DNA from: Seison nebaliae
Taxonomy: Eukaryota; Rotifera; Pararotatoria; Seisonacea; Seisonidae
Direction of reading: 5' to 3'
Assembly (NCBI GenBank): GCA_023231475.1
Contig: JALJEE010002185.1
Location: forward strand, 99,519-163,518
Length of the DNA stretch: 64,000 nt
Each line of letters begins with the position of its first letter. The stretch's first letter is position 1. Below the pieces are notes generated by a model. It worked only from the letters and a program-made list of their open reading frames with translations. It was not told the DNA's origin and did no database searches. Made by a program: the position numbers and the translations under genes. Shown piece by piece: positions 10,601-62,724 of this stretch.

Positions 10601-12782
10601 ATGACATCATTGAAAGAATATTTTGATAAGTACCAACGACGGAATTATGATAGTGACCAAATTATAAACCTTTTACACAGTTAACATTTCTTCCTTCTCT
10701 TCTCTCATCATCGTCTAATTTGCAGAAAATTGCGTCACATCTCTCTACGCCGTGAAGGGATTGATATTCGAAGAATGGGTGGAACTTTTCGATGAATACA
10801 CTTGGATTGATCGTTTTGAACTGTTGAAACTGATCAAAGGTTATTTCGAAGAATGTCGTATCATTGATAATTGCACATTCTTCAAATATAATCAAATGTT
10901 GAATGTTGACGACGAACTTTATCGACAAGAAAAACGTTCGAGATATTCCTCAGACGATCATATCGATATTGAGAATCTGTTGAATGATCATAGTTTTGAT
11001 ATCGATCTAATCACAACACTTACTAAGAAGAAAAAAGAGGAAGAATTAGAAAATGGGAAAAATCAATATTTATGTTCTAATGACAAATTCATTCTGAAAT
11101 TACGTGATAAATGTTCCATCGATTTCATTAATAACGGTAAAATGATATCTGTAGATTTGATGCAATTCCCTTCCAATGGAAAGAATGGTCAATCGTCAAG
11201 TTTATATCAGAAATGGGAAGAATTTGATGAATTGAGATTAGCTCGTCATTTTCTTTCATCTTTCGACATGAGAATGTCAAACGTAGCAAATACTAAAGCA
11301 GGAAGGAAATATTATTATGTTTGCAAGAAAAAGGATTGTCGTTTCAAAGCGAAAATTGAAGAAAGATTAGGCGATGGTGTCAATATTCATACGGTAGTAT
11401 TATATTATAGTGGAAGACATTTCGGACATGAGGTACATTCTACCGATCTTCAACGGACATTTCTCCAATGGTTATCAACCGACAACAAAGAAGAATTCGA
11501 AAGGATATTACAACGAATTGGAATGAAAGAAATTTGTCGAGAGAAGATCGATGAAAATTCTCATAATACTTTATTTGATTGTTGCTATAATAATTGTACA
11601 TGCCAAATAAGAGTTGACGGGAAGAAAGATGAAGAAACTGATTTATTTTATGTCTGGAAATCAATGAATCATCAACATTCGTTAATTGATTTATCTGATC
11701 GACTGATATCGTCAGATGTGATAGAATTAACGAAAAAATTAGTTCATCAAAAAGAGACGATATCGAATATCGTCATTGAATTGGAAAGATATTTACACCT
11801 TCCACATCTCTCTCATTTTCATATCATCAGTCTCATTGAACCGATAGCAGAATCGTTGAATCTTTATCAAGACTACGAAATTCAATTGAATCAATTGAAA
11901 AAATTATGTCATCCGGTTATTCGTCATACTGCAACTAACTCAATTCTATCACAAACATCATCATTCACTGGAACGATTTCTTCATCAATGTCGTCGATGG
12001 TCAGACCAAAAATTATATCGCCACCACGACATCGTTCCAGTAACGTACTTTATCAACTTCTCCACGAATTTCCCAATTATGAAGTAGCGAAACTTTATGC
12101 GACGGATGAATGTCATACCAAATTGTTTCACGTAACGAGACATCCAATAAATGGGAAGAAATGTTTCTTCCAATGTCGTCATTTGAATTGTTCTTATCGA
12201 TTGAAATTATTTGCTTTAGAGAATGGACGATTTGGAGTTGCAGAAAATGGAGAACATAATCATCCGTTAACTGATATCAATATGAGGATAACTGAACCAA
12301 AAGTAAGAGAATCGATTATCGAATGGATGTCGAGTGGTTTCGGAATTTATGCTATTAAAAAGAAACTGATGGCATTATATGATTTCCCCGAATTATCTCG
12401 TACACAAATCCGATCGATTATTGATACTTATCGGCAATATCGATACAAACCAAATGAACATCGTGACGATATTGTAATAAATTCGATAGATAATAGATCG
12501 ATTGCAAGTGCGGAAAGTAAATGTGATAATACACCTGATAATGATGTTCATGATATGCTCGGATTAGATACTGACATAGAAGAAGATGTTCTTATTAAGA
12601 ATCAGAACTTAGATGGAGAAGAAGAAGAAGATGATGATGATGATGATGATAATCAAAGAAGAGAAAATGATGAAGAGGAAGAAGAAGATGATGATAGTGA
12701 AGATATGGAAATGATATCTCATCAGAATAATGTTATAAAAAAAGATGAAGTAATTTCATCCACTTTAATTTCATCTAATTAA
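10601..12782 (+). CDS. Triple WRKY/FLYWCH-like zinc-finger protein
   Basis: Two exons, 10601-10679 and 10726-12782, joined by a 46-nt intron (GTTAAC...TTGCAG), encode about 711 residues. Three degenerate copies of a zinc module occur: C226-x4-C231 with H258/H261, C312/C313 to C317 with H342/H344, and C510-x4-C515 with H537/H539. A short C pair followed 20-30 residues later by H-x(1-2)-H is the pattern of the WRKY/GCM/FLYWCH/MULE-associated fold. The tail (about residues 640-690) is a run of Asp and Glu encoded by GAT/GAA repeats. This suggests a DNA-binding nuclear protein. No transposase catalytic domain follows, so it is not an intact Mutator transposase. The ATG sits just after a ttttag, so an earlier exon is possible. 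Confidence 0.65.
12605..12705 (+). repeat. GAT/GAA repeat encoding Asp/Glu tract
   Basis: Imperfect GAA and GAT triplets inside the coding frame of the zinc-finger gene give an acidic low-complexity tail. Confidence 0.8.
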
Positions 12783-13268
12783 TTTACGATAAGTAAATTA
12801 TTTGATCTTCTATCAAAAAATTATTATCATATATTCACTGAAAAAACGATAATTAGATTTGATGAATTAATTTAATTCTGGTGATGATGTTTTCTTCAAT
12901 CACTTACTATTCTCAATATGCGGCAAATGACTCAATTAAATTTGATGAGATCGGATTAATAATAGAAATCGATTGAAATGAAATTCAATCCATTTGGATA
13001 AAATGATCAAATTTTTTATTATCGAAAATTCGATTTTATCACTTCTTTATTACTTTTCCCATTTCGAAAAAAAATTTATTATTATTTTCCACTTATTCCA
13101 TTGATTCTAATTCCATAAACAAATCTGTTTTTTTTTTATAGAGAAATTGTTATAAAAATCTTTTAATTAAAAAATTCTCCATAGAATTCTTTGTAAATTT
13201 TTAAATTTTCCCGATACGTTAAAGGAATTTATTAAGAAGAATAATTTATTTTAATTTTGATCGAATCT

Positions 13269-15452
13269 CTAATAATGACTTATAGACAACCAGAGAATAT
13301 CCTTCTCATAGAATAATTGACTGGGATCGACAGTGGCTGCATTTCTTGCTGCTGTCAATGTTGTCATTGATGTCATCAGATCTAAAGGTTCACGTACTCT
13401 CATTCGTACTTGTAATTGAGCACCAGTAGGTCGTCGTCCATTCATTAAATCATATACATCTTCTACTGTTGCATTTGATTCAAGAGATTTCAATGGAATA
13501 TTTGCTATTCCAATGGAACGTTCAGAACGAAAAATTCCAGGTTTATAGTTGATGGAAATTTGAGCATTTCGAACTGCAATTATGCGACTAAAACGACGGT
13601 CTCTCGTATTAATTAGAATTTTAAATGAATCATTATAATCAGGTTCGACACCTCTCGCTTTCTTACCATCTCCTTCTTGTTTCTCGTCGGACGGATAAGG
13701 AAAAGTGTGATGGGGCCAAGTGTCGAATGCATCCGAATGAGAATAACCTTCAGGTAATCGATAACGAAGACCTCGAATTACAGTCAATTCTAATTGATCA
13801 GCTGCCAAATCAGGATTGGATTTGAGAATAGAAAAACTTCGTTTCTCATATTGATATGGAGGTGGCGAATGATTCTTTCTATATAACGTTTTGAGAACTT
13901 TCAATATCACTTCACCTTTCTGGACAAGATGTTCATAAAATGGAATTAAACTTTCATATTTACATCGACGACAATTTGCTAATTGTTCCAATACCAAATT
14001 TAATTGTTCTTTTGCATCACCGATCAATTTTTTCAAAATCGCATGATCATCTCCTTCGATTTTTATAGGAACAATTTCTCCTTCCATTCTTTTCTCTTGA
14101 TGAATTGGTATATTTCTTTTAGTTGATGAAGATGATGGAGAACGAGGTGCAGAAGGAACATCTTTCACATTGATCTTTAATCCTCTATTCACCATCGATT
14201 CCATTTGTTCGATTCGTTTTACAGTTCTCAAATAATCGATTGCTAACGATTTATTATGTTTCGATTTAGCATCAATTGCACATTTTTTATATTGATTCCT
14301 TCGAATTTCTAATACTTTCAACATCTTCATCGCTTGAGGAGATGTACGCATAGGAACACTCTTACTCATATTACCTGGAACGTTATCGGTAATAGCTTGA
14401 ATTGAACCTGTTTCATTATTCATTGATGGTATCTGTTTATTTGATCGAGTAGGAGATGGCAAATCATGAAAATTAGGTAATGTTGGTAAAGAATTATAAT
14501 CGAATGGTCGTTTATTCTTATATGATCGTATTGCCTCATCATATTGTCCTACCAATCGATTATATCGTCTCATTTTTCTCGAATCATCTGTTTTCTTCTT
14601 CATTTTCTCATATTCATTCTTACGGAAGAGTAATGCTTCCTCGAATGTCAAACTGGATTGATCAACATCTTCCTCAATCTTCGATTCTTCTACAACTGGA
14701 ACTGACACTGGAATTGAGACCGGTTCAATTTTCGGAGATGGTTTCATTGGCACAATTGATTTTTCTTCTTTTTTTCCTTCTTTCTTTTCCAAATTTGGTA
14801 ATTGTGGTGGTAAATCGGATATTTGTATTCCTGGCCCTTTCTCTTCCAACATTTTCATAAGTTTCTGATGAATAGAAAAATAAATATTCGATCTACTTTC
14901 ATCTCCTTCACTTTTACATTTCTCACTCGCCTCTCGATATTTGTCACACAATTCAATTGCTTTCTCAAGTGCATTATCATCGTTTCTTACATTTCTTTCA
15001 AGTTCTTCATTTTCTGTTGTTGTTGTTGTTGTTTGTAAATGTTCTTCAAAATTATTTTCATCATCCGAAATATTTTCATGTTGTTGTGTTTGCTGATTTT
15101 TTAGAATGATTGGTGCTGGAAGTTCTTCAGGAGATATGGAAATTCCTCTCATTTCTTTCTTTTTCCATTCTTCCAATTGTCCCAATTGTCGTTTATATCG
15201 TCGTAATTTCATTGATGGGAGATCAGGTTGTTCAATTGCTAATTTATAATTTCTAATTCTTTCATCTATTATCGATTGTTGTTTCTTTTCAGTTTTAACC
15301 GATGTCGGTTTAAATGTTTCCTCTTCTCCAACTAATTCTTCCAACTCTCTTAATAAATCTTCATCATTATCATTCGAAAGATCTGGTGGCGGCCCACCAA
15401 ATCCACCTTGACTTCCCAGAATTTTTTGCATTTCTTTATTGAAATCTTCCAT
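13269..15452 (-). CDS. CC2D1: CC2D1 / lethal(2) giant discs homologue
   Basis: One uninterrupted frame of 727 residues from ATG at 15452. It has four DM14 repeats (about residues 55-110, 160-215, 265-325 and 375-430), each an amphipathic helix pair followed by a short Leu-Pro linker. A C-terminal C2 domain spans about 560-690. This order is diagnostic of CC2D1A/B, called lgd in flies. The family binds ESCRT-III CHMP4/Shrub at endosomes and affects Notch receptor sorting. The frame is open for 10 codons upstream of the chosen ATG; this Met begins a conserved-looking acidic start. The gene diverges from TIM13 with 232 bp between start codons. The absence of introns is notable for so long a gene. 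Confidence 0.93.
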   Translation of the reverse strand: MEDFNKEMQKILGSQGGFGGPPPDLSNDNDEDLLRELEELVGEEETFKPTSVKTEKKQQSIIDERIRNYKLAIEQPDLPSMKLRRYKRQLGQLEEWKKKEMRGISISPEELPAPIILKNQQTQQHENISDDENNFEEHLQTTTTTTENEELERNVRNDDNALEKAIELCDKYREASEKCKSEGDESRSNIYFSIHQKLMKMLEEKGPGIQISDLPPQLPNLEKKEGKKEEKSIVPMKPSPKIEPVSIPVSVPVVEESKIEEDVDQSSLTFEEALLFRKNEYEKMKKKTDDSRKMRRYNRLVGQYDEAIRSYKNKRPFDYNSLPTLPNFHDLPSPTRSNKQIPSMNNETGSIQAITDNVPGNMSKSVPMRTSPQAMKMLKVLEIRRNQYKKCAIDAKSKHNKSLAIDYLRTVKRIEQMESMVNRGLKINVKDVPSAPRSPSSSSTKRNIPIHQEKRMEGEIVPIKIEGDDHAILKKLIGDAKEQLNLVLEQLANCRRCKYESLIPFYEHLVQKGEVILKVLKTLYRKNHSPPPYQYEKRSFSILKSNPDLAADQLELTVIRGLRYRLPEGYSHSDAFDTWPHHTFPYPSDEKQEGDGKKARGVEPDYNDSFKILINTRDRRFSRIIAVRNAQISINYKPGIFRSERSIGIANIPLKSLESNATVEDVYDLMNGRRPTGAQLQVRMRVREPLDLMTSMTTLTAARNAATVDPSQLFYEKDILWLSISHY

Positions 15453-15684
15453 CTCCTTTCCACTTGACGTTATATGATACAATTACAAAAAATTCATTAA
15501 ATAAACAAAAAAAATCTTCAAATCAATTTTTTTATCAAATTAATCATTCAATTTGTATCGAAGTGATATCATTTCAACAACAAACAATTTTATCCCAAAA
15601 AAATTTTAAAGTAAATTTCTTCAAATTTTTAGTTTTTCTTGAAATACATAACTCTACAACGATCATATCAGAATTGTAAAGAAA
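15453..15684. promoter_or_regulatory. Divergent CC2D1/TIM13 promoter interval
   Basis: The 232 bp between two oppositely directed start codons must hold both 5' UTRs and core promoters. It is A/T-rich with T runs. I see no strong TATA or known element. Confidence 0.5.
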
Positions 15685-16058
15685 ATGGATGAAATGCCAA
15701 ATATGTCCAATCTTTCCACGAACGACCGAGACAAAATTCTCACTAACGTTAAACAACAACTAGCAATGGCACAAGCACAAGAATTACTTCAAGTTTCTTT
15801 CTTCCAATTTTCATTGAATTCTCTTCACAATTAAAATTTGTCAGAAAATTTCAGATAAATGTTTCTCGGCTTGTATCACTAAACCATCAACCAGTCTCAG
15901 TCGTTACGAAGAAGTTAATTTTTCTCATTTTATTTCAATTCAAATTTATTCTCAATCTTTAGACTTGTTTAGGTAACTGTATGGATCGATATATGGAATC
16001 GTGGAGAATAGTTTCAAAATCGTTCATGGCCAAAGCTCAAGAAAGTCAATTCAATTAA
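15685..16058 (+). CDS. TIM13: Mitochondrial import chaperone Tim13
   Basis: Three exons, 15685-15792, 15845-15913 and 15963-16058, encode 90 residues. The introns are 52 and 49 nt and start GTTTCT and GTTAAT. The protein carries the twin CX3C signature of small Tim proteins (CFSAC and CLGNC) with the usual spacing. The flanks VKQQLAMAQAQELLQ and MDRYMESW match the Tim13 subtype. Tim8-Tim13 hexamers escort hydrophobic inner-membrane precursors across the intermembrane space; the cysteines are oxidised by the Mia40 relay. Length and motif order are those of a complete gene. The second exon holds the first CX3C and the third the second. Confidence 0.96.
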
Positions 16059-16642
16059 AACATTTTTTGTAAAATTTCTTTCAGAATAAATACTTTTTAT
16101 TCTTGATTCTTTTAACATATAAGTTTAAGTTCAATTTTTCAATTTTCATTTTATAAGTAGAAACTTTTACATATTTTCCATTGTAAATGAATGAGAGAAG
16201 AATGAAAGATATTCAGTATTATTTAAAAGACAATAAAAATGAATAGAATTTGATTTGAAATGAAGAAATGATGAATTATCAAATAATTAGAATCGATACT
16301 CGATTAATTAACCTATGATCGACCGATAAAGAATACTCAAAAGTTTTGGGAAAAGAAACGAAATAGAAGAAGATTTTTTAAGAAAACTTTTGTACTGTGA
16401 AATGTGGAAATTAATTATGGATCGATTAATTAATTGGTAGATGAATGATCATCAAATGACCTTTAACAATTAAACTTTGGAAATAAATCTCATTCCTGGG
16501 AGAGAGAAATGCCAAGGAAGAAATAAAAGGAAAACTAGTTCATAAAAGAAGAATGGAAAATGAATCTAAAATGTTTATAGACTTCCTAAAAAGAGACAGA
16601 CATAATAAAAATAAAGTTCCTAGATTATATATCAAGATATAC

Positions 16643-17629
16643 TTATCCTAAATCGTATAATTCCAACATTTCTTTTTCTAATTTCTTTTGGACAATTTGT
16701 TCAATGAAAACCTTTCGACGCCAACCTCGATAATTTTTCAATTGATCTGTAGCTACTTCTCCATTTTCTCCAGCCGTTTTTCGTTTCCTGGAATTTTTCA
16801 AAATTTTCCTTTTTCCATTTGTTGTGCATTTCTTTCGCTCTTCATCTGGAGAGAAGTTTTCATTCACATTCTTCCCATTCTCATTTGGCGAAGTGCCGAT
16901 TCCTGAATGATCGGAGGGTTGATCGTTTGCAATGTTGTGATTGGTTTGCGATTGATTTTGTTGGAGTTGTTGATGATTATTTAATTGTTTTAAGAATTCG
17001 TAAATCTGATATATTTGTTTTACATGTTGGGAGTTTGTCAAAGTGGAATTCTGATTAAGGATTGAAAAGAATTTTTCTTTCATATTTTGCTCCTCTAATT
17101 CTTTCTGTCGTTTTATCTGTTGGATGATCTGCGAAAAATTAATTCGATTTACATTGTCGTCATTATTCTCCATAAGTGTGTTCGCATTTATCGGTAATGA
17201 AACTTGTTGAGGAGTCGGAGATGTCGATGAAATTGACTCAGTTTGTGGTGAGCATCCACTATCATTTGATGATGTATCCATATCGAAAGAATTTTCGTGT
17301 TTGAAATTTCTGTGATTCTGTTTGGGCCAAGGATATTTTTTAGATTCCGTGACGATCATCTTGGATGAATGAATATTTGAAATATTCTCAACTGTTCTCT
17401 CTGAGTGAATGGTTGGTGGATTGTCATTCATTTCATGAGTAAACGAATTATTTGATTGAAATATTTGATTGGTATCGAATGATGTTGTTGAATTAAAATG
17501 GAGAGGAAATAATTGTGGGTATACTGTTGGTGATATTGGTATAGATGGACGAGCTAGATGATCATTCTTCTCATCATAATATTGTCCATTACATAAATTT
17601 TTATCTTGTAAAAATAATAATTGATTCAT
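16643..17629 (-). CDS. Unrecognised Q/N/S-rich protein with basic C-terminus
   Basis: A single 328-codon frame. The first 240 residues are low-complexity, rich in Asn, Gln, Ser and Thr. A basic stretch with KRK/RKRK clusters (about 270-290) looks like a nuclear localisation signal. It is followed by a short charged helix (about 295-328) containing NYRGWRRK and a Leu/Glu-rich end. I cannot match it to a family; a transcription-related nuclear protein is a guess. The base composition fits its neighbours and the stop is genuine, but 5' exons may be missing. Confidence 0.55.
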   Translation of the reverse strand: MNQLLFLQDKNLCNGQYYDEKNDHLARPSIPISPTVYPQLFPLHFNSTTSFDTNQIFQSNNSFTHEMNDNPPTIHSERTVENISNIHSSKMIVTESKKYPWPKQNHRNFKHENSFDMDTSSNDSGCSPQTESISSTSPTPQQVSLPINANTLMENNDDNVNRINFSQIIQQIKRQKELEEQNMKEKFFSILNQNSTLTNSQHVKQIYQIYEFLKQLNNHQQLQQNQSQTNHNIANDQPSDHSGIGTSPNENGKNVNENFSPDEERKKCTTNGKRKILKNSRKRKTAGENGEVATDQLKNYRGWRRKVFIEQIVQKKLEKEMLELYDLG

Positions 17630-32584: not shown

Positions 32585-35213
32585 ATGAATATCTGTCTCT
32601 TATTACTTCTTTTCATTAAAAGTGAAGTTATGGTTCTCAAAGGTGATTCTCCGTTTCGATTATTACGTAGTCGCCCCAACAAACTTTCGTCAGAAAAACC
32701 CAATTTGACGAATAAGAAATTCTCTCTATACGACGAACAACCTCACAATAAAAATGTATCATTATCATTCTTCAATTCCATCGATTATTACGAAGCAAGA
32801 AATATCAAACCGAAACGAATACAAAATGCTGAGAAAATGCTATATCGTTATTTACTGGCAGACTATGAGAAAGATAGCAGACCAGTTCTCGGCTCTGAAA
32901 ATGTTACTGTTCTCATCAATCTGGTGGTTGTTACAATAATGGCAATGGATGAACGAAATCAAATTCTTACAACTCATTTGTGGGTAGATCAAAAATGGAG
33001 AGATGCTCATTTAACATGGAATCCTGACGATTTTAATGGAATTGTTAGAACTCAGATACCTGCTACCCAAATCTGGGTACCTGATACCTTCATTTATAAC
33101 ACGTTCCTATAATTATTCTTACGATAATTACTGATTTTAATACCTCTTATATATGTTTTTAGTGCTGATGAGCAGTTTTCTGGTTTTATAGCCCCGAGTA
33201 CTCTTGGATATTTGTTGGTACAACACGACGGAAAAGTTCATTGGCCACATCCCCTCCGATTAAAAAGTACGTGTCGAGTTAATATTCGATATTTTCCTTT
33301 TGATAGTCAAACGTGTACTATCAGAATTGGATCTTGGAGTTATAATGGTCACCAAGTTTAGTTTTATTTTTGTGTTAATAAAATATTTAAAAAATATTTA
33401 ATTTTTTAGGTCTATATAAAGAATGAAGCGGAAAAACCAGATATTACTGAATATACTCAAAATACAGCTTGGGAACTAATATCGGCCAAATTGGAAAGTC
33501 GTATAAGAATTTATAAGAGTTGGCCAGAACCGTTTCCGGAAATTATGATGCATTTAAGAATACGAAGACGACCACTATATTATACATATAATGTGATAAT
33601 TCCATGTATTCTTTTAAGTGCATTAACCACCTTAACATTTGCACTACCAGCTGATACAGGTGAACGAGTGACACTTGGTGTAAATATATTTTTAGCAATT
33701 AGTGTATTTATGTTATTGGTGGCTGAACAGGTACCTGAGACGTCTGAATCAGTTCCATTATTAGGTTATTTTTTAGCATAATCAAAAAAATTTTCAATTT
33801 TCTTCTGAAAATTTTTAGGTGTTTATTTCACAATTGTTATGGTTACTACATTTGCAGCGATTGCTTGGGCCATATTCATAATTAATATTTTGAGAAGTGC
33901 ACAAGCATCAAAAGCTCCCCCGATTATCCCTCTGAAGATAATAATTATAATAGCTCCTTTTATTTGGATAAGAGTACCAGCCGGTTTACGAAGTGAAATG
34001 GCTGAAAAGAAGCTTGAACAAATTAAAGGTAAAAAAGAACGTAAAAGTTTTAAAAAAAACATTTCAAAACAGACTTCAAATCTACAAATTTCCGGTCTAA
34101 ACAACCTCTCACAAAGGAGATTACAAGCGTTCAAACCAAATTACCATCGTCATCGACGACTTTATATGAATTTACCAAAGAATCTTTTTAATAGCAGTTA
34201 GTCGTTATTTTAAATGATAAGGAGTCTAATAAATTTATGAAGAATTTAATGTCATCCAAACTGATTGTGATAGAATTGAAAAGAAACGTAAATGGTTAAT
34301 CAAACAAGCTGATGTAATAAGTGATGAAAGCGAAATAGTTCTACCTTCAGTTCAACTAAAAGATAGATCTGACGAATTATTTAAAATATTCGGACGAAAC
34401 GCAAAAAAGAGTTTGTTGAGCAACAATCATATGTCGGTCGATCAATCTTCAGATTCGATTGTCGCTAAAAAAAAATTATCGATTAAATCCGCCGTCTCCA
34501 ATCCTAATCTTTGTGTAATTAACGATAATAATAAGATTGTTTCCAATTACAGTTTCAGTATAAACAACGATTCACCGCGTAAGACATCTGACGATTTGAA
34601 CGACGACAAAACATCCAGAAACTCCAGAAATTCATTATTTTTTTATGGAACAGGAGAAAAATTTAGTACGAAACAATTGTTACAGCAGAAGACGTATCAT
34701 AAGGTTCCAAGCATTTCTTTAAGTAACTTCGATTTTTCCATGTTGGTACCAATTGATTCGAACCAAAAGGTTGTCTCAAAAGAAAAGAGCGAAATATCAG
34801 AAAAATCGATTGATAATGGAAATGATTCCGCCACCGATTCAGACGCCTCGTTCAAAACGATGAAAAAGAAAGGAACAAAATTGTTGCGAAGGACTGTATT
34901 GGATGAATCGAGTGAGACAGTGAAGAAATTAGAAGAGAAGAATAATCAATTCCAATCAACTGATACAAGAAATCAAACGAAAATGAACAATGTTATTCCA
35001 AAGAAATCGGGCGTGAAAGGGAAGGAGTTATTTGGGAAGAAAATTAGAGAATTGATTGACAGTCATCATTCTCAAATGTGTACGATAAAGAAACAATGGC
35101 TATTTATTGCTGCCGCATTGGATCGTTTTTTTCTTTTATTTTTTTCCATTTTTAACATTGCTACCTGTGTGGTAATGTTGTTCATTATACCGGCAATAGC
35201 GAAGGACTATTAA
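32585..35213 (+). CDS. Cys-loop ligand-gated ion channel, nicotinic-type non-alpha subunit
   Basis: Five exons (32585-33102, 33163-33355, 33410-33764, 33819-34196, 34243-35213) encode 804 residues. Introns are 60, 54, 54 and 46 nt. The ATG at 32585 starts a signal peptide (NICLLLLLFI). The Cys loop is C210-x13-C224. Loop A reads IWVPDTFIYN and loop B GSWSYNG. M1 is about 293-317. M2 about 322-341 is preceded by GE(322)R, the cation-selective signature. M3 is about 357-380 and M4 about 773-797. Loop C lacks the adjacent Cys pair that defines nicotinic alpha subunits, so this is a non-alpha or orphan subunit. The M3-M4 loop of roughly 390 residues, Ser/Lys-rich, is far longer than usual. The gene acts in the plasma membrane of excitable cells. 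The natural ligand is not determined by sequence. Confidence 0.93.
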
Positions 35214-36531: not shown

Positions 36532-38455
36532 ATGGTCAGTTTGAAACACTTATGGAAACGACATACATTACTAATTGTCACGACGATATTTGTGCTTTGC
36601 AGTCTATTTACCAGTGTACTTCTCAGATATCACCTACACAAATTCTCACCTGGGACCATTGATCTGATTATTATCTGGTGTGGTTTCCCAGGTGAGATAT
36701 TCATCCGAAGTCTCAAATTGATGATATTACCAATGATTATAACCTGTATCATAGCAGGTTCCATTTATTCAAGAATAATAACATCCATCATAATCATAAC
36801 AACAACAATATTTCAGCTTTAGCCGAACTACATCCAACAAAAAATAGTAAAGTAACAATGATAATGATCGGATATATTCTAATACAGAATTTTATTGGGT
36901 CTCTTTTGGGTATATTATTCGGACAAATATTGAATATAAACAATAGTCGATCTTCGATTATAAACAAAAATTCCTCATTCAATTCGACTGAAGGCTGTTT
37001 GTCAGATATCTTTCAAGATATTTTTCGGTTTCTTTCTCGAGTCATTTATTTCGTGTAAAAAGTCGTGTTCATAAAAAAGAAATTTTATTCCAGATAATAT
37101 TGTTATTGCATTTCTCCATTCTCAAGAGACGAAATTAACGATTATCAATGAGAATAATTCCACTATCTATAAAAGAAAAATACAAAACGTGGGTTCGATG
37201 AACGTTTTAGGTTAATTCTCTTTTCTTTACTACTCCAACTACTTCTTATCAAATAATAGGTGTTGTCGTTTTTAGCGTGATATTTGGTATGAGTACCAGT
37301 ATGTGTGGATCAGCTGCGGAAAGCTTCAAAAAACTTATTATGTCATTGAATGAGATTGTACTTCAAATACTTCGATGGATTATATAGTTACTTTTTCATT
37401 ATAATTTTTATTATTTATATATATTTTATTTTATATTACTTTATTTATAGTATTTCTCCAATTGGTATTGCTAGTTTGTTGCTAAGGACGATTTTGGAGA
37501 TAAAAAACTTCTCGGAAACCTTACAAATGATGGGTGTTTTTGTCGCCGTTTTCGTCGCTTTAATACTGGTGGAGATTTTTGTCATTTATCCGATCGAAAT
37601 TTCAATTATCACCAAAGATAATCCTTTCTCACATTTCAGACATTTTTCTCAAGGTGCCTTGTTGGCCTTCACCACAGCTAGCTCGTTGGATTAAAATTTT
37701 AAAAGAATTTCAGTCATTTATTGATTTTCATTTGAACAGAGCATGTGCATGTCCTGAAGTCATGGATAAATTACATTTGAAATGTTCCGTTCCTAAATCA
37801 ATCGTCCGTTTTGTTATTCCAACAAATGTCACATTATCTAAACCGGGTTCTTCGGCCTTCCTAAGCCTATCGGTAATCTTAATGGCTGATGTTCAAAACC
37901 ATACTATTACATTTCCTAATTATGTTGTTATTCTGTTAGTATTCGTTTATTGACAGACACATAACGATTTTTAGATTTATGACATTCTTTCTCTCCTTAG
38001 CTTTACCGTCGATTCCAAGTTCAGCTATCGTTGCTATAATCACAATAAGCAATGCAATTGAGTTGGATGCCGAATATGTTTCACTTTTATTTTTAACTGA
38101 ATGGATCCTGTTAGTAATTACATATTCATCGTAATATAATCTTACAACATTATTCTATCGGAAGTGATCGATTAAGAACATTATCTAACACAGTGTCTCA
38201 TATTGGTTGTGCAATAATTGCGGGTACGTTGCATGAACCGGAAATGATAGAATTAAGTTATGAAGAGATTTAGAATTTAAATTTCTAAATAATCCTTTAA
38301 TTTTAGATAAATTACTCATCGATGAAAAACAATCGCCAAGTATAGATGGAAGTTCAAAGCAATTTTCAATTAATTATTCAAATGCTCTCCAAAATTCCGA
38401 CTCGAGAGGTTTCGAATATGATGATGATTCTACTGAATCAGCAAATGGACCTTAA
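36532..38455 (+). CDS. Divergent SLC1 (excitatory amino acid transporter family) protein
   Basis: Nine exons (36532-36757, 36817-37027, 37080-37210, 37260-37386, 37451-37684, 37740-37934, 37975-38109, 38165-38256, 38307-38455) give 499 residues, a normal SLC1 length. Recognisable parts are FPGEIFIRSLKLMILPMII (TM2), NVLGVVVFSVIFGMSTS (TM4), YISPIGIASL (TM5), TTASSACACPEV (hairpin 1 tip) and PSIPSSAIVA (hairpin 2). TM8 reads LDRLRTLSNTVSH. Family members cotransport glutamate, aspartate or neutral amino acids with Na+. Here the TM7 NMDGT motif is S343-K-P-G-S347, and the TM8 Asp equal to GltPh D405 is H432. Asp421, Arg424, Thr425 and Asn428 remain. All eight introns (40-64 nt) start GTT. Na+ coupling is therefore doubtful. 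Confidence 0.9.
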
Positions 38456-51175: not shown

Positions 51176-52460
51176 TATATATCACTCATTATATTATGTT
51201 AATCCTAAATCTCATAGATTCTTTACTCAAAATTAAAAGGATGATTATTCATGTTAATTCACAATTATCCAGTCAAAATAATTTTCATGTCCTTTTTTTG
51301 TAAAAAAGTTTTACTTATTCATATCTTCTATTCATTTGTGGTGGTGCTTCGGTTTATCATTTCCCCTATTTCCTTTCTTCTTTATAAACTCAATATTATT
51401 ATTTATCCATCCTTTTCTCCTTTCTAAAGAATTCAGTAAACATATCACTTGACTAGCTTGACGATTTGGTTTTGCCTACCGTACAAGAGGATTATTCTTA
51501 TACAAATAAACAACAAAATCACTTCAGTTTATATAGTTAAAAACTTAACTATCCTATATTTAATTTAACATTTTTGAAAAATAAAATAAACCGTAAAAAC
51601 TAAAACCTAAACTCACCCTATATATATATATATTTGGGATTAATATTCAGTTTTTCGTATAATGGAATCGAACCTTATAATTTTGCATTCATGGATTATA
51701 TTCATAGTTCTCTTGAAAAAGGTTGTATTGGAGTTAGAGAGAAAAACCTCCAAAGAAAACCTCTTGATAACCATCTAATAAAATTGTAAAATTAAGTCTT
51801 TAAATTAGCAAGTATATCATTGTTATTCTAAGCTTCTATAAATTAATCTTAAAAAAAATATTTTTTAGCATTATTCATATTATTATTCTTCTATACATAA
51901 AAAATCTTTCTAATGAAAATCCCTGGTCTAGACTCTAAACTCTTCATATTTCTATTAACGATGTTTTTCTTTCAATTTCTATTTTTCGAAACTTTGGAAT
52001 ATAATTTGAAAGTTGAATTTATGTTATTCACCTTATCATCTCTCTCACCTTCGAATTTATCATTGTTGTTCAATTTTAAACTTAATAAATGATTTAAATT
52101 TTCACGCTTTAATTGCGAGGGATAGGGATTCTTCAAATAACTCAAAGATCAACTTCCCATGTAGTGCAAAATGTACAAAAATGTTTTTGCACGAAGAAAG
52201 ATATTTCCGGACATTCTATTGGTGATATTTTGTACTGATAATATTATAAGTTAAAGATTCTTTGAACAATAGTTCACTATGGATATGTTAAAGTTACGAA
52301 TAAACTTTATTATTAAAATTAAAGATTAAAGATATTAAAATTAAAATATATTTAATTAAAGTTAATAATGATTAAAAATTAAATATTAATTTTTTAGTAA
52401 TCTCAAAGTGAAAAGTTCAATACTAATACAACAATACCATACAATATAATATAATAAGTA
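51176..52460. other. Intergenic, convergent NK6 and CatSper-like 3' ends
   Basis: Both flanking genes point into this A/T-rich stretch, so it holds their 3' UTRs. A (TA)n run lies near 51618-51631. No coding frame is supported. Confidence 0.6.
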
Positions 52461-55721: not shown

Positions 55722-55966
55722 TCTCTCTCACGATCAATATCAGTAAATTTATTTAATAAAATTAACCGTTGGAAATTTCATCACAAACCGTTTCCAAGTT
55801 CAATGACTACTTTTTCCTTCTTCGACCAATAGCCGAGAATTAGTTGAATATTACAACTCTTAATTTCGACCGTTAGGAAAATGTTATTGTGTGAAAGAAA
55901 ACTTAAATGTGTTGGAGAAGAAATTTAAAGAAAATGTAATTGTTTTGTTTAAACATTTTTTTTTAA

Positions 55967-57838
55967 TTAATTGAACTACAAATATGGAGAGATTAGAGAA
56001 TTTGGGAGATATGAGGAAAAATTGAACTTTCCATCGGAATCCACAATTTGCACAGTATACGAATGTTGTCATTGGTTCATCAGCACTTCTTGTTTGAACT
56101 TGATTATAAAAACAGTTATTCGAACGACATCTGCAAAAAATAATACATGAAATTTATTTAATGAAAAATGAAACTTTTTACAATTGAGCACATTCGTCTT
56201 AGTTCCTTGACGTACAGCAATCTGATATTGATCTATACTTTGTTTCGTCATAATTTTTCTTTCTTCTCTCAGTGATTCGGTTGCCATTTCCTGAAGAAAA
56301 AAATCTTTCCAATTTCAAATGAAAAAAATTTCAGAAACTTTATGTGTCATTTTGAGAAAATCATCGACAGAAATCACTTTAGCAATAACGTCAGCACGAA
56401 GACCTTTATTCGTTCTCAGATTGCTAATTCGACTCATAATATCTGATCGATAATATTGTTGTTTCGTAGGGAATTTTGTGTAAATCTTCTCTTCGATTTC
56501 AGCAGCTAATTTTCTGATATTATTCCGATCTGTAACAATTTCATTATCTTTCAACATCGAATCGATCAATTTGTCTCTCAATGTATTTCTGAGAGAAAAG
56601 ATGAGAAATTAAATGAAAGAAATTTCCAATTACCTCGGCGGTTCAACGAATGGCAACTCCTCTTCATCTTCCGTTGTACTTACTTTTTCAACTTTTTTTT
56701 TTTCCTCCGGTTCAATTTCCTGTTTCATTTTCTTTGGTTGATCACTCGATGGTACCGACGAATGATCATTAACAACTTTTCTTTTTTCATTTCTTGTTTT
56801 TTCTAAAAATAAATTTTCAATTTTCTTCACATTAAATTTTAATTAAATGTTTTCCATATATTTTGTCTTACCAAATATTTAGAAAATGAATTTTCATAGA
56901 TAAATTTACACATAAATTTGTCTTATAACGCAAACTTAGAAAAATGAGTTTGGCAAATTCTTTTTGAAAAATTATATATATAATATTATATTAACTTATC
57001 TGTTCTTTCCATGCACGGAATGTATTTTGAATGCTCTTCCTTATTTTCTCATCAGTACTCGTCTTGTAAAGTAAATTCAATTTTACTCCCAAACCAGATG
57101 CCTGAACATATCACAATTGGAATGATGGAAATTGGCTAACTTGTAAGGATTTACGATCAACTTTCGCTTTCTGTAATTCATCCAGAATCTTTCCCAATTG
57201 AGTCGAATCCTGATCTCAAATTTAATGGAACAAAGGCAATAAAATGAAAAAAATTACCACAATTTTCTCTTCGACCATCTGGTTAATGGGTTCCACATGC
57301 TTCATAATATCCATTTTCGTCTGTACTGCAATTGAAATTTGTGGATAAGTAAAAAATGAAATAAAATATTTTTCGATTCCAATTAAAAAGCTGAGTATTT
57401 AAAAATATCATTATAGATCTCTTATAATTAATGGCTTAATTATATTAAATAGTGGCAAAATAGTGTGCAAAATTTTATTTTTCGATTTTTATTAAAGACA
57501 ATAAATAGAATGAAAAATAATTCGAAAACGTTTTTATAAAAATAGAAAACAATTTTTCTATAAAAATTTTCTTAACTGATGAAATAATTTTATTTCTTTT
57601 TAATCGATTTCTTTATTCATAAAATTTGATGTAGTTTTTTATACCTTTTTATTCGTATCATCATCATTCCAAATATTTTTCCATTTACTTGAAGATACTT
57701 ACAGAGACTAGAATAAATTCTTCTTTCTAATCCAGTTCTATTCCTTTTCTTTATTTCGTTGAATACTTCTACTTTTTTTCCGAGTAATTGTCGATTATTC
57801 CTTTTCTTATTATTGGACCCTTCTATTTTTTCAACCAT
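55967..57838 (-). CDS. TCEA: Transcription elongation factor TFIIS
   Basis: Nine exons: 57838-57703, 57325-57258, 57209-57141, 57101-56996, 56802-56634, 56588-56339, 56290-56175, 56130-56028 and 55975-55967. They encode 341 residues. The N-terminal LW domain spans 69-126 ([14 protein letters not shown]...SLQASGLG...FRAWKEQ). A Lys/Glu-rich linker follows to about 182. Central domain II is about 183-275, with [15 protein letters not shown]. The zinc ribbon is about 303-341, with [19 protein letters not shown] and CANCGFRWK. The Asp-Glu of RSADEP inserts into the Pol II active site to stimulate RNA cleavage. The first intron is long (377 nt) and has a canonical GTAAGT donor. The last coding exon is only 9 nt. 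An alternative start is the Met in exon 2 (57313). Confidence 0.95.
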
Positions 57839-58112
57839 TTTTAAACATTTATCTTATTTATGTATTATTGTGTAAGTGTAAAATCTAACGTAAAATGTTT
57901 GCGATCTATATATTAATATAAGAAAAATCATATTTAATGTTTTCCAATTTACTTCTTTATCTTCATCCACTGCTTTCTCGTCTTTTGATCAACATGACGA
58001 ACTGTGTTTCCACTAGATGAATTAAGCTTATTGATTTTATTTTAACTAATTCTTTTCATTTTCATTTACTTCCTAAGAACGTCCTAATGTACATAATTTG
58101 GTTTATTTGGAA

Positions 58113-59463
58113 TTAAATAAATTGCCAAGCGAATGTGCAACATACAATAGGAATGAAGTTTCCTAATGAATTTTTGATGACATCTATAAAACTGATAGAT
58201 GAATCTGATAAATATAACGAGCGTAAAGTCCATGGTTCTGGTAAGAATATCCACATATCCTTATATTTCTCATACAATCGCGTTTCACCTTGGAAACAAC
58301 TTTTCCAAACGATCAGAAATAGAATTGTCCATTTAAAAAAGTCAATCATAAATTTTCCATTTTGGTTGATATGTTGTTTAGATAACCTCTTTTTCACATC
58401 AGCAATTCTCATGCAAATATATGTGAAAGAGAATAAGATGATGATTTGCCCCTCGGTTACCAAATACCTTCAGATATATAACGAAAATTAAATACAAATA
58501 ATAAAAATAATTTTCAAACAGATAATATAATGCATTGATGACGACGAAAACGAAATAATATTTATTACTGAATAGACCTACGAATTTCAAGAAACAATTT
58601 ATGAGATATAACATATTACGAACATAATATTGATAAATTATAGTTCAAGAAATAGCAGAAGAATTGGAAATATAATTATATTTATTATAAAATTTGAATA
58701 AATCAAATTTCAATTGATATTTCAAATGGTAAATGTAAAACTAACTGTAATTAGAACTTGAATCTGAAACTTTATTTGAAAAACAATTCGTATTAAAGTA
58801 AAGAAAGAATTCAAGAAAGTATGCAAAATACCTAGAGACATTATTATAGAAATTTTTAAATTAAAAGAATAAGGAAATGAAATAATTAACCAAAGATTAT
58901 GTCCAAAAATTTCATCATAAAAATAGAGCAATTCAAATGTTTCTATCTGTAACATGAAATTATTTTTCAATAAACAAATTTTAAAAGTTAACCATCGCTT
59001 CAGTTTGATTTGACATAAATTGATTAGAACGAACATCTTTATGTAATTCATATCCTTCCATCGTCAACCTGTGATTGATCGAATCTCCTACCAAATGGAT
59101 CGAAGCACCCATTACAAATACGGCGACTAAACCAATTTTAAACATTCTTTTCAACGGTAAATTTTTGTTTTTATCTTCAGACGGAGACCACATCTCATTA
59201 AAATAAAAGTGGTTATTTAAACAATTAAATTTCTAATATACCTTGTAAAGACACATTCCAACTACCACATTATATGCCATATGGAAGTAATCTCCTAAAC
59301 TTGGTCGATTCAAGGGAAACCATTTTGCTGTCAAAATCTAGAGCGATAAATTTTAACATTAATACTCTCAACTAACCATCACTATTGGACGACAAAAATC
59401 AAAAAGCCAATTAGCGATTGTCAGGGTTCCCCATACTCCAAAATTGAATTGTTCGTTTTTCAT
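58113..59463 (-). CDS. CLN6: CLN6 (ceroid lipofuscinosis protein 6) homologue
   Basis: Six exons: 59463-59377, 59337-59242, 59193-58993, 58946-58832, 58577-58520 and 58467-58113. They encode 303 residues, close to the 311 of the human protein. Family blocks are WLFDFCRPIV, KWFPLNRPSLGDYFHMAYNV, GASIHLVGDSINHRL, ETFELLYFYDE.FGH, YLVTEGQIIILFSFT and FLPEPWTLRSLYLS. At least six hydrophobic segments are present. CLN6 is an ER membrane protein that, with CLN8, exports lysosomal enzymes from the ER. The introns are 39, 48, 46, 254 and 52 nt. The 254-nt one has a GTATTT donor, and the others start GTTAGT, GTATAT, GTTAAC and GTTTGA. It is head-to-tail with TFIIS, 274 bp apart. Confidence 0.93.
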
Positions 59464-59469
59464 ATTCTT

Positions 59470-60499
59470 TTAAAAATTCTGCATTTATTACTAATTCTTT
59501 GACGCATACAAATAGTTATATTTTTAATAAAGATTTATTATCATGACGACAATCTAAATTGGAGAGTATTGAGAATTAGAGGTAAACTTTGAACTTCTAG
59601 TTAATTCAAGGATACATTTAAAGAGATAAACAATAAATAATCGAAAAGTTACAATAGTTACACTCTACATTATATGAAGAGAATATTTGGGCTCATCATC
59701 ACAAACATATTATAGATTATTTTTCTATAATATAGAATATCCCAAACAAATGAAATAGTGTGATGTAAACATAAACTAAATAATAATTTACTTCCTATGC
59801 CAATAGTTTTAAAATAAATAAAAAATTCAAATCGTCTTTTGATAACCAAATCAGAAATATTGAAAAGCCGCTTTTCAAAAACGACTGTTTGCGAAAGTAA
59901 CAATTTAACAAATACGTAAACTCCATATCGAATGGTTTTATTTCTATCAAGATCGATATCCTTATGGTATTGTGTAATACGTATGTCCTTTCATTTCTGC
60001 ATTATGTCAGGTATGGAGCTCAATTTTTTTAACCACAAATAATACAAACAGCTAAAATTGTTGCTTCGATTTCTTTCATCATAATGTTTCCACATAATGC
60101 TGTGACTACTTGACATCTTTTTCACATCTTCGAACATTATAACGAAAAAAGTTTTCGCAATGAACAATAAAGATATTTGTAAGTGTTTACATTTTATTTA
60201 TTAGATCATCATTTTATATATTGTTGTCGCATTGTAGCGGGAAATTTCCATAAATTAATTTCAAAGAAATTCGAAAAAATCAAAAAAAGCCGTCGCGAAG
60301 TTAAAAATGAAAAGATTGAAGAGCAATGTTCTATGATAATGTTAACTAAAGACAAATAATATTATTAGGTAAATATTAAAACAAATAAGATTAAATTTTA
60401 TACAATTACGAAAGATATCTTTATATATATTATATTATATAATTATTACTCAGCATTTTAAAAAAATGCAAAATCTGATAAATTTTATTCAATTGTACT
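59470..60499. other. Intergenic, serine protease 3' end to CLN6 promoter
   Basis: No coding frame is supported on either strand beyond short A/T-rich frames such as 59670-59903. Contains the CLN6 promoter and the protease 3' UTR. Confidence 0.55.
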
Positions 60500-62724
60500 T
60501 TATTGATTGTTTTCCATTGTTTCTTTCATCCAGGCTTTGAATACAGAGACAGTAGCATATATTCCTTTTCCACCACAAGTGTTATCTACACCATAGCTTG
60601 TAACTCCTGTTAGTGTAAATATGCCGTTCTCAAACTTGTATAATGGTCCACCACTGTCTCCTTTACAAGAATCCTTTTCTTCATCTGGGTTTCCAGCACA
60701 GAATGACACTGCTGTTTCCTTAGCTTCTAATTCACAGACACTATCCGCTTGAATAGGAAATGTAACTTTCCTCAACTTCTCAGAAATTTCTCCTTCTGCC
60801 GCTGTGTCATAAGAGAAATATAATAAGATATAAATTATAGAATTACAAACGGACATCTATCCTTCCCCATCCTGCTGCTGTTACTTCTTCACCTTCAGAT
60901 GGTCTATCATCGCTTATGCATATTGGTTGTGCTTTATCGTTGAAAGTTATTGCTTCACCGATTTTTATTAGATAAATGTCGTTGTATAAGTTAGTGTCCG
61001 ATGATTCATAATCAGGATGCTTTTAAATTTTAAATTATTGAAGTTATCAAAAAAGTATAATTAACCTCAAATCCTTGTTCAATTTTTATTTTTTTTTCTC
61101 CCGTGTCAACTTCCACCAAATCCAAATCGGAAATCACCACTTCGGAGTTCTTAACTTCTGCACTGAAGGAATTAAGTAATTATATAAATCTTTGGAATAT
61201 CTTCTAACTAACTCGGACATTCCTTCAAAACAATGGGCTGCTGTGACTATCCAATTTGAATTCACAATACTGCCACCACACAATTGCTCGCCTGCACTCG
61301 TTTTGATGTTAAGCGATACAATAAAAGGAATTGAATTATCAGTTACAATTTGTCCATTGACGATTCTGCTCGTTCTTCCTGATGTTCCGCAGTTCTTTGG
61401 AACTATGAAAGTAGAGTAAAAACAGTTGGTTATAACTATCATCTAAATCTAACATACGCCTTCGTCTAAAAAATATTCGATAAAGATTAAATTTGTATTC
61501 AACCAATAATATTAATTTTTTTTTAAAACCTGCAATAGTTGTTGAAGTTGGAGTGGTTGTTCCTTTTGTTGTTGGTTTAGTAGTCTCTTGGGTAGTACTT
61601 TGTGTAGTGTCTTTTGTGGTTAATTTGGTAGTCGTTTCTGTGGTTTGGTTCGTAGTATCCTTAGAAGTTTCTTCAGTATTCTCAGGTGTTGTATTTTCAC
61701 TAGAAATTGTAGTTCCTGTTGTAGTTATTTTTGTAGCAGTACTTTCTGATGTCACAGGTTCCGTATTTGTACTACTACCTTCAGTTGTTGCCGTGCTACT
61801 ACTCTTTACATTAACGTTTGTTGTTGATTCTTTGTTCACTGTTGTTTCTAGTTCTGAACTAGTAGTCTTTACAGATGAACTAGTTGGAACATTCTCTGTT
61901 TTTATAACATATTAATGATGAAGAAGAATATAGAATTTAAACTGGATGTTTTTGCCATCTCTGATGTTATCGTTGATGATTCTTTTGTGCTCGTACCAAG
62001 ATCTTGCATTGTTTTACCAGTTGTTTGCTCCTGTATTTCTGTCGATCTATTAGTGAATGTTTGAGAGAAAATTGTAGTTAATAAAATGAAATACATATTT
62101 TGGAAATAAAATAATGGGAAGGAAAGACCTAATTATATTTTGCATAATTAAATCTGATGATGCTAACTGTGATGGGCTCGAAGGCTCACTTGAGACAATC
62201 GGATCTTCTGATGTAACTTCTACGTTAGATGAAGATGCTTGAACAGTATTTACAGATTCCGTGTTTGGTGTTGTTAAAGTAGTAGCTCTTAAACTAGTTG
62301 AAGTATTTCCGATATTCAAACTGACTCTAAATCAATTAATGAAATCAAAGGTATCAAGAAAAGTTAAAACGAAGATTCGACTGTATCCGAAATGACCACA
62401 ACTGTTGCTAAAAGAATAATAAAGATCAGGTCTTCTAAATTTAGTAGAACATTAATTAGAGTTTAACTTGTTGTATCATCGTCTGTGTCACTTACACCTA
62501 AACTTTTGAAATGTACACCTAATACAACTAAATATAGAAGAAAAATTTTAATGACCAATAGAAATTGCTGCAGCAAGTCCACCACCCAGACCAAGTGTGA
62601 GAACTGCCAGAACTCCAATCAAAAGTGGAATCAGTCTAATAACAGAACTGTTGAAAAAGTAATTTTATGAAATTTCCAACAATTGAGATTTCCTTTCTTT
62701 CTTCTTTTTTCCCAATTCGTCCAT
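60500..62724 (-). CDS. Type II transmembrane trypsin-like serine protease with Ser/Thr-rich stalk
   Basis: Eleven exons: 62724-62681, 62647-62556, 62527-62468, 62407-62371, 62326-62129, 62046-61943, 61895-61530, 61402-61213, 61162-61066, 61019-60851 and 60801-60500. They encode 552 residues. A basic cytosolic tail (MDELGKKKKERK) precedes a Leu/Gly/Ala membrane helix (about 20-45). A Ser/Thr-rich mucin-like stalk spans about 60-300. The protease domain starts after Arg313 (R-IVNG). The catalytic triad is His357 (TAAHC), Asp410 (NDIYL) and Ser502 (GDSGGP). Asp496 at the S1 pocket predicts cleavage after Lys/Arg. Cys305 in the propeptide could pair with the Cys of PICIS, as in TTSPs that stay tethered after activation. 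One 28-nt and one 33-nt intron are predicted. An alternative start with a signal-like peptide exists at 62096. Confidence 0.88.

Follow-up and report, generated by a model that had tools for sequence, protein, structure and literature searches.

In Seison nebaliae, a marine rotifer (Seisonacea), GTT takes the place of the usual GTA or GTG at the start of approximately nine out of ten introns, and position 6 of U1 snRNA, the nucleotide that faces intron position +3, is A in three of the four genes found. GTT donors observed at the gene-model level, the sequences of the U1 genes and their preserved fold make it probable that the 5' splice-site consensus was switched genome-wide from GTR to GTT in the lineage of this species, and that the switch was matched by a recoding of U1.

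Homology to nine solved proteins, with position +3 left free and GT-AG ends imposed, placed 48 introns, of which 43 start with GTT, four with GTA and one with GTC. Within the window (the whole stretch of 64,000 nucleotides analysed), such introns belong to TFIIS, EAAT, nAChR-like and trypsin-like genes (Table 1), being GTT in 14 of 15 cases and GTA in the other; the 12 window donors for which the next-best choice would lose 8 score units or more are GTT without exception. With 21 introns, 19 of them GTT, the sequences of two deposited Seison proteins are recovered exactly, and the deposited EAAT protein encoded in the window, SNEBB_008065, uses GTT at 8/8 donors, its spliced translation being identical across 499 aa. 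Between positions 10680 and 62680, a trained gene finder returned 41 GTT, three GTC and two GTA donors in 46 introns, while a gene finder with a flat donor model returned 39 GTT, four GTC, three GTG and two GTA in 48. Homology, deposited proteins and gene finders thus confirm the dominance of GTT put forward in the original prediction (48 GTT, five GTA, two GTC and no GTG among 55 introns). For the trypsin-like intron at 60796..60850 the gene finder sets the other end at 60802. The match to Prp8, intended as a rich source of introns, falls within a single open frame of 2395 aa. The species was recognised by way of proteins, COX1 giving no match: NMD3 pointed to Seison nebaliae, and ALG11 to no close relative among the 120 matches listed.

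Table 1. Introns located in the window by homology or deposited protein; the slash in the donor column separates exon from intron.
Gene	Donor	Positions	Strand	Evidence
EAAT	gcag/GTTCCATTT	36758..36816	+	deposited SNEBB_008065, letter-for-letter
EAAT	ttcg/GTTTCTTTC	37028..37079	+	deposited SNEBB_008065
EAAT	ttag/GTTAATTCT	37211..37259	+	deposited SNEBB_008065; homology to human EAAT2
EAAT	tata/GTTACTTTT	37387..37450	+	deposited SNEBB_008065; homology
EAAT	gctc/GTTGGATTA	37685..37739	+	deposited SNEBB_008065; homology
EAAT	ttct/GTTAGTATT	37935..37974	+	deposited SNEBB_008065; homology
EAAT	tcct/GTTAGTAAT	38110..38164	+	deposited SNEBB_008065; homology
EAAT	ttaa/GTTATGAAG	38257..38306	+	deposited SNEBB_008065
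nAChR-like receptor	acac/GTTCCTATA	33103..33162	+	homology to nAChR alpha-7, delta 63.4
nAChR-like receptor	ccaa/GTTTAGTTT	33356..33409	+	homology, delta 15.3
TFIIS	aaaa/GTTTCATTT	56131..56174	-	homology to TCEA1, delta 89.4
TFIIS	taaa/GTTTCTGAA	56291..56338	-	homology, delta 45.3
TFIIS (GTA donor)	cgag/GTAATTGGA	56589..56633	-	homology, weak, delta 3.2
TFIIS (193 nt, GTT donor)	ataa/GTTAATATA	56803..56995	-	homology, delta 11.2
TFIIS	acaa/GTTAGCCAA	57102..57140	-	homology, weak, delta 0.6
Trypsin-like	gtcc/GTTTGTAAT	60796..60850	-	homology to plasma kallikrein, delta 14.7; gene finder
Trypsin-like	tgag/GTTAATTAT	61020..61065	-	homology, delta 17.5
Trypsin-like	ccga/GTTAGTTAG	61163..61212	-	homology, weak, delta 1.1; gene finder

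The preference for GTT donors is confirmed to be real and to extend past the window. Over this larger range, the flat donor model produced 204 GTT, 32 GTA, 14 GTC, nine GTG and two other donors in 261 introns, from a set that includes 13 loci (L002 and L003 sharing ~1.5 kb); in 263.5 kb taken alone, 181 of 225 were GTT, 24 GTA, 11 GTC and nine GTG. Two intron calls in the overlap, beside the U1a gene, one GTC and one TTT, are probably spurious. Position +3 is the most informative one after GT, and the donor consensus reads roughly AA/GTT[A/T]NT, supporting the expectation of a lineage-specific consensus. G at +5 was anticipated in about a quarter of the GTT sites, as borne out by homology (11/43) and by the gene finder (41/204), while the last exon base, expected to be often A or T, is indeed frequently A (23 of 43 homology GTT sites) but seldom T (6), with G in 10 and C in 4. 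The U12-type donor is RTATCCTT; GTATCCTT does not occur among the 48 donors placed by homology, a set restricted to GT-AG introns.

Since these donors are known at gene-model level and a gene finder can feed its own bias, the intron ends might be misplaced and the real donors be GTR sites nearby. When deprived of any GT seed the gene finder failed to arrive at GT, yielding 173 "introns" with neither GT nor AG recognisable, and GT itself is consequently taken as given in it. On the contrary, with +3 left free GTT is chosen at 39 of the 43 homology donors that would cost 8 or more score units to replace, and the summed alignment score drops from 5946 to 3859 with GTA/GTG donors only, forfeiting roughly two thirds of what introns add to it, versus 5747 with GTT only and 2773 without introns. 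Gene finders seeded flat or with GTRAGT, GTA or GTG ended with 220-229 introns, of which 200-209 have T at +3, and the two deposited proteins agree with the GTT placement. The 21 introns of these proteins fit GT-AG, the score being equal when any ends are allowed, and GT was by far the commonest donor dinucleotide when this was left free and AG fixed (35, of which 32 GTT; the other seven listed sum to 17). Considering that (i) homology alignments, (ii) restricted-donor scores and (iii) the GTR-seeded gene finder all favour GTT, a shift to GTR donors is rejected as extremely improbable.

T at +3 could also simply follow from an AT-rich composition and from introns being short and rich in U, given that A+T amounts to 67-75% in the window, that T follows GT with a frequency of 0.589 inside predicted introns (n=380; versus 0.361, n=6095, where coding sequence is predicted), and that T is also raised from +6 to +9 (0.60, 0.54, 0.48 and 0.65). 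Nonetheless, T reaches just 0.35 and 0.27 at the adjacent +4 and +5, and GTA accounts for only 4/48 donors despite A being about as frequent as T overall, with AT skew close to zero in most of the window. The 43/48 GTT donors moreover exceed both the intronic T share (binomial p 3.1e-6) and the coding one (p 1.8e-14). An explanation by composition only is disfavoured, and we regard it as very unlikely.

Two intron classes by length, with GTA used by the longer introns, had also been proposed. Neither the trained model nor homology supports such classes, and the use of GTA by longer introns, proposed on the basis of introns of 377 and 254 nt, was not confirmed. In the trained model, median lengths are 50 nt for GTT and 48 nt for GTA introns (Mann-Whitney p 0.73), and introns above 100 nt comprise 18/203 GTT versus 3/15 GTA (Fisher p 0.16); by homology they are 2/43 and 0/4, respectively. 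The 193-nt TFIIS intron, with its GTT donor, also speaks against the length split. An excess of long GTA introns appears only in the flat-donor model (9/32 GTA versus 15/204 GTT above 100 nt, p 0.0016), whose extra GTA donors are gene-finder predictions.

The U1 gene search gave four genes, whose 5' ends read AUACUUACCUGG, the canonical form, in one, AUACUAACCUGG in two and AUACUAACUUGG in one, in support of the altered U1 snRNA envisaged in the original prediction. A is found at position 6 in three of them (U1a, U1b and U1c, hereafter A6 genes), and U1c also has U at position 9; the unaltered U1 5' end, AUACUUACCUG, is present in 1/4 genes (locus L003). Thus, the A6 genes resemble U1 without being canonical U1, owing to the altered position 6, and position 9 in one. 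All four loci align over positions 1-166 of the Rfam U1 covariance model (RF00003), scoring 112.9, 112.4, 108.0 and 97.4 bits versus a gathering threshold of 69.5, with the canonical gene (112.4) on par with the best A6 gene (112.9). The genes are 62-67% identical in alignment, and in the fold, derived from the same four-gene alignment on which covariation was scored, 92.0% of cells pair and 16 of 41 pairs are changed on both sides, a level matched by 0/500 shuffles. AATTT, the Sm core motif (AAUUU), occurs in all four loci. ATTGCAC in the U1A loop, the U1A site (AUUGCAC), is kept in the three A6 genes, while the gene with the canonical 5' end has AGAGCAC instead. Among flanking elements, picked post hoc from sequences already seen, AATTAAACTTT lies directly downstream, exact in two of the three A6 genes and in U5 and matching at 10/11 positions in the third, and a candidate upstream element matches fully in U1c and in the canonical gene, but at 7/10 positions in U1a and 8/10 in U1b. 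Contig C208 holds both the canonical gene and an A6 gene, separated by 1.5 kb, which makes a foreign contig unlikely. The U1 5'-end pattern matched a fifth time, on contig C629; this was dismissed as chance, as the U1 family gave no match there even with E allowed up to 1, and the reversed control pattern gave 6 matches versus 5 for the real one.

T at +3 opposes U in canonical U1 as a U-U mismatch, and U1 snRNP picks its sites mainly via base pairing, according to the available part of PMC4383343. Since U1 position 6 faces +3, replacing U6 by A restores pairing to GTT. Canonical U1 forms a mean of 4.38 Watson-Crick pairs with the 48 homology donors, and among the 27 single changes in U1 nucleotides 3-11 U6>A fits best (5.19 pairs, next 4.62); it also comes first among single changes when the 43 strongly placed donors, or the 259 GT donors of the gene finder, are used instead. 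Among 324 double changes the best is U6>A with C9>U (5.44 pairs, next 5.27), precisely the 5' end of U1c, although its lead is narrow (5.30 versus 5.28 for the strongly placed donors; 4.94 versus 4.86 for the gene-finder ones). Pair counts were preferred over the duplex energies also computed, as the latter rest on short, weak duplexes. Past +3, donors pair poorly with any U1, G at +5 being at decoy level (0.20 versus 0.19); U1 pairing alone may therefore not define the donors. A at -1 and -2 may also reflect pairing with the U5 loop.

In the mechanism proposed, the consensus of the lineage would have moved from GTR to the present one while A replaced U at position 6 in three U1 genes. U1 snRNPs containing A6 would bind GTT donors first, the U replacing C at position 9 of U1c would pair with A at exon -1, and handover to unchanged U6 and U5 would be normal. 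The A6 genes would be expressed and yield the predominant U1 snRNP, whose pairing would be what maintains T at +3. U1 with the canonical 5' end could serve the minority GTA donors or non-splicing roles, or else be minor; its division of labour with the A6 genes is unproven, since the four homology GTA donors are unlike strong GTAAGT sites.

Another step, involving U6, U5, METTL16, SNRNP27K, LUC7 or U1C, might instead drive GTT use, with the A6 genes accessory or dying and canonical U1 doing most of the work. Intron +3 also faces U6 after donor transfer, and the canonical U1 gene survives, with a full match to the candidate upstream element, unlike U1a and U1b. In yeasts, moreover, changes of position +4 between species are tied to METTL16 and SNRNP27K and not to U1, whose ACUUACC was invariant, in the available text of PMC10581693. 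On the contrary, the U5 loop and its pairing region look canonical, and the U6 search gave a single match with a canonical ACAGAGA region, at odds with the altered U6 once suspected. The U1C, LUC7, METTL16 and SNRNP27K families all have matches, so that loss of any of them is not the cause, and SNRNP27K retains MMMQMGFASF. In addition, the canonical gene has lost the U1A loop, which the A6 genes retain together with the fold and the Sm core, and the U1 changes present are those that fit the donors best. This alternative is thus considered unlikely.

Seison provides a candidate natural case of a donor consensus and U1 evolving together genome-wide, with base changes as pairing predicts. Having U1 changed and the pairing regions of U6 and U5 unchanged, it can separate the roles of the three snRNAs in donor choice. 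We hold it likely that this animal lineage rewrote the part of U1 that reads donors, called invariant from yeast to human barring minor U1 variants, together with about nine tenths of its 5' splice sites, and that recoded U1 snRNPs (A6, and A6 with U9 tuned to A at exon -1) now run splicing, the canonical-end U1 being kept as a relic or a specialist, in a natural two-U1 splice code. This raises how genomes move between splice codes, perhaps through a period with two U1s, of which the canonical gene may be a trace. In genomes of this kind, tuning a gene finder to GTR may also cause introns to be missed.

None of the titles and abstract beginnings listed in the literature search concerns GTT donors or an altered U1 in Seison or other rotifers. 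In their available text, the Seison genome paper (PMC8351084) contains "intron" twice, "splice" once and "snRNA" never, PMC10125929 mentions alternative splicing of Seison lamins with no splice-site sequence, and the word rotifer is absent from PMC10599564. The comparisons that follow reflect the available parts of the articles cited. Fritillaria borealis is, like Seison, an animal with a genome-wide non-usual intron consensus and a conserved core spliceosome, but it departs from GT/AG itself and has two U1 versions with identical 5' ends, its authors invoking U2AF duplication and U1/U6 m6A, whereas Seison retains GT/AG and has a changed U1 5' end (PMC13326754). The A/U switches of Saccharomycotina similarly concern one intronic donor position that differs between species, although this is +4 and is linked to METTL16/SNRNP27K; compensatory U1 was sought there, and ACUUACC was invariant, with candidates from 227/230 genomes and 9/10 outgroups (PMC10581693). 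According to PMC4383343, nucleotides 1-10 of U1 do not vary from yeast to human. The neoblast-enriched planarian U1C1/U1C2 share with Seison U1c a C>U change facing exon -1, but they are cell-type variants alongside other U1s, with neither a +3-facing change nor a genome-wide donor shift reported (PMC6312358). Human vU1.3/.4 and vU1.8 are likewise paralogues alongside canonical U1, in a genome with standard donors, unlike Seison (PMC13172311). The diplonemid S. specki resembles Seison in having, next to a conserved U1, another whose 5' end is altered, but it is a protist, and its alternative U1 carries a C stretch and fits the canonical donor logo comparably to canonical U1 (PMC12621601). Finally, in the engineered U1 of Zhuang and Weiner (1986) a base change suppresses a donor mutation, as proposed here; that was a laboratory suppressor, whereas the change in Seison appears evolutionarily fixed genome-wide (the 1986 work as cited in PMC11732430).

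The Seison nebaliae assembly (a rotifer, order Seisonacea) comprises 36.0 Mb in 846 contigs, and the window forms the final 64 kb of one contig, which is 163,518 bases long. Donors were placed by alignment to nine solved homologues (GlyT2, NMD3, TFIIS, RPS13, EAAT2, VMAT2, nAChR alpha-7, plasma kallikrein and ABCA3), the aligner knowing only GT...AG and BLOSUM62. The 48 introns so placed comprised 43 GTT, 4 GTA and 1 GTC donors, two of the GTT cases depending partly on 27 presumed RPS13 residues. Among the 43 strongly placed introns, for which switching to the second-best donor lowers the score by 8 units or more, 39 were GTT, 3 GTA and 1 GTC, and across intron penalties of 6 to 30 the GTT share was 44/53, 43/48, 40/44 and 35/39. 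Summed alignment scores reached 5946 with any GT donor, 5747 with GTT only, 3859 with GTA/GTG only and 2773 without introns. With AG fixed and the donor dinucleotide free, GT was commonest (35, 32 of them GTT), the other seven dinucleotides listed summing to 17. The EAAT gene of the window corresponds to the deposited protein SNEBB_008065, recovered letter for letter with eight introns, all GTT; the NMD3 predicted on contig C1 matches SNEBB_004297 at 99%, and this protein was likewise recovered exactly with 13 introns (11 GTT, 1 GTC, 1 GTA). Both are deposited gene models and not RNA evidence, and most of their introns are also among the 48.

A two-strand hidden Markov gene finder was trained on 263,518 bases (the whole of contig C22 plus 20 kb from each of C1-C5) from a main seed specifying GT and AG only, flat beyond. 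Its first pass gave 98 introns (71 GTT, 16 GTA, 6 GTC, 5 GTG) and the trained version 225, with T at +3 in 204, A in 15, C in 6 and G in none. Seeding with the usual animal consensus GTRAGT, with GTA alone or with GTG alone still ended with T at +3 in 209/229, 200/220 and 203/226 introns, respectively; run without any GT seed, the finder did not recover the splice signals. With a flat donor model alongside the coding, intron and acceptor models as trained, the same DNA plus 13 further loci yielded 261 introns (204 GTT, 32 GTA, 14 GTC, 9 GTG, 2 other), and the 263.5 kb by themselves 225 (181 GTT, 24 GTA, 11 GTC, 9 GTG). The original prediction of GTT donors in place of GTA/GTG is thus borne out by homology, by the trained gene finder and by 19/21 introns of the deposited proteins. 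For one receptor intron of the window, by-eye comparison with the family suggests that the gene finder's end lies too far, into a membrane segment; its GTT donor at 33765 would stay unaffected.

In the 48 homology introns, +3 is the most informative donor position after GT (1.44 bits; T 0.90). Upstream, A prevails at -2 (0.50) and -1 (0.52, with G 0.27), while +4 is A 0.38 or T 0.35, +5 is near even, and T amounts to 0.60, 0.54, 0.48 and 0.65 at +6 to +9. Relative to decoy GTTs in coding sequence, the gene-finder set is richer in A at -1 (0.50 vs 0.30) and -2 (0.50 vs 0.34), and G at +5 is not enriched (0.20 vs 0.19). Composition does not account for the T at +3, since 43/48 exceeds the frequency of T after GT both in coding (0.361; p 1.8e-14) and in intronic sequence (0.589; p 3.1e-6). 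The further proposal that long introns use GTA, forming two length classes, found no support: donors were not separated by length in the trained or homology sets, and the longest homology introns, of 193 nt (next-best donor costing 11.2 units) and 222 nt (4.2, weak), are both GTT. Only the flat-donor set suggests a link, with 9/32 GTA and 15/204 GTT introns exceeding 100 nt.

Covariance models run across the entire assembly, with the best 41 of 293 candidates scored, yielded four U1 loci. The suggested alteration of U1 was indeed encountered: the canonical 5' end ATACTTACCTGG occurs only in L003, while L002 and L004 carry ATACTAACCTGG and L005 (U1c) ATACTAACTTGG, all three with A at position 6 (A6 genes). 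A 5'-end pattern search returned the same loci and one extra match, rejected as a fifth U1 because no U1 was found around it. U1 base-pairs with AG/GUAAGU through its positions 3 to 10 (PMC4383343), which sets position 6 opposite +3 and position 9 opposite -1. With U6>A, the U-U mismatch at GTT donors is accordingly replaced by an A-U pair; C9>U in turn matches A, now the commonest base at -1.

Features and their coordinates (G000, S. nebaliae assembly)
Feature	Location	Strand	Basis
U1 with canonical 5' end (L003)	G000:C208:6576-6739	+	covariance-model search
Canonical-5'-end U1 and one A6 U1, convergent, 1.5 kb between, one contig	G000:C208:6576-8439		
Third U2 (L039)	G000:C796:78598-78799		
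Prp8 match	G000:C431:78638-79039 and L027		
Receptor intron	window 33765-33857		gene finder

Every possible change in U1 nucleotides 3-11 was scored by its mean Watson-Crick pairs with the donors. For the 48 donors, U6>A ranked top of 27 single changes (5.19; next 4.62; canonical U1 4.38) and U6>A + C9>U top of 324 doubles (5.44; next 5.27), the effective choice being 21 singles and 189 doubles, since no change opposite the invariant GT could come out best. Both also led for the 43 strongly placed donors (best double 5.30, runner-up 5.28) and for 259 gene-finder GT donors (4.94, runner-up 4.86), although overlap between the donor sets means that the three results count as a single concordance. 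The single change leads clearly, the double narrowly, and both best-fitting forms are the 5' ends actually present in the genome.

All four loci pass the Rfam U1 cut-off over the full model, at 62-67% pairwise identity in the alignment. Tested on the alignment it was derived from, the fold is nevertheless preserved through paired changes, with 92.0% of cells paired and both sides changed in 16/41 pairs; none of 500 shuffles was as high, and slid versions were far lower. The U1A loop ATTGCAC is kept in the three A6 genes, where L003 has AGAGCAC. An exact copy of the motif AATTAAACTTT lies 10 bases downstream of two A6 genes and another 13 bases downstream of U5 (L032), the match being 10/11 in the third A6 gene and 9/11, the weakest of the four, in the canonical one; such an element 10-13 bases after L002, L004, L005 and L032 may be the species' snRNA 3' box. 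Similarly, TCRCACTTTY, at -71 to -95 and exact in L003, U1c, U5 and one U2 (L037), not in U1a or U1b, may represent its PSE, both elements having been picked after inspecting the sequences. In sequence, the A6 genes hence seem roughly as well preserved as the canonical gene, and better preserved at the U1A loop; L003 could be either a relic or a U1 with a specialised role.

Judged from sequence, U1 is the one clear change among the donor-reading RNAs examined (U1, U5, U6). The U5 loop is standard, and the suggested alteration of U6 found no counterpart, its sole match having a standard ACAGAGA region. Three U2 loci were found, the third being more diverged (78.7 bits vs 139.1 and 135.4). Family matches are present for METTL16, LUC7, SNRNP27K and U1C. 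Mammals have several LUC7 paralogues; here a single locus was found (L029-L031, contig C540). U1C (L035) keeps HDSPSVRKTH, the residues just after it differing from human, with THNQGKNH where human U1C has THCSGRKH. In the human structure, Arg28/Lys29 of this protein are close to the RNA backbone (PMC4383343). The Prp8 match falls within one open frame of 2395 aa, so that the gene is apparently intronless, in a genome that otherwise carries introns.

Most likely, recoded U1 snRNPs would select GTT donors through pairing at +3, with extra pairing at -1 by U1c, and hand them over to unchanged U5 and U6. Human U1 snRNP is described as picking sites mainly by base pairing, U1-C touching only the backbone (PMC4383343). 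The A6 U1s would then presumably be expressed and dominant, and we infer that they arrived with or before the donor change. The canonical U1 is possibly retained for the few GTA donors, but those of the homology set are not strong GTAAGT sites.

Among the papers listed in the literature searches, neither titles nor abstract openings indicated GTT donors or a changed U1 for Seison or any other rotifer. In a yeast clade, donors are reported to switch at +4 without any U1 change (PMC10581693), whereas in Seison the switch is at +3 and U1 is changed; U1 5' ends are given as identical in Fritillaria (PMC13326754), unlike those of Seison. Partial parallels to the A6 U1s are offered by human variant U1s (PMC13172311) and the diplonemid alternative U1 (PMC12621601), as portrayed there. 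Planarian U1C1/U1C2, described as cell-type variants, share with Seison U1c the same change facing -1 (PMC6312358).
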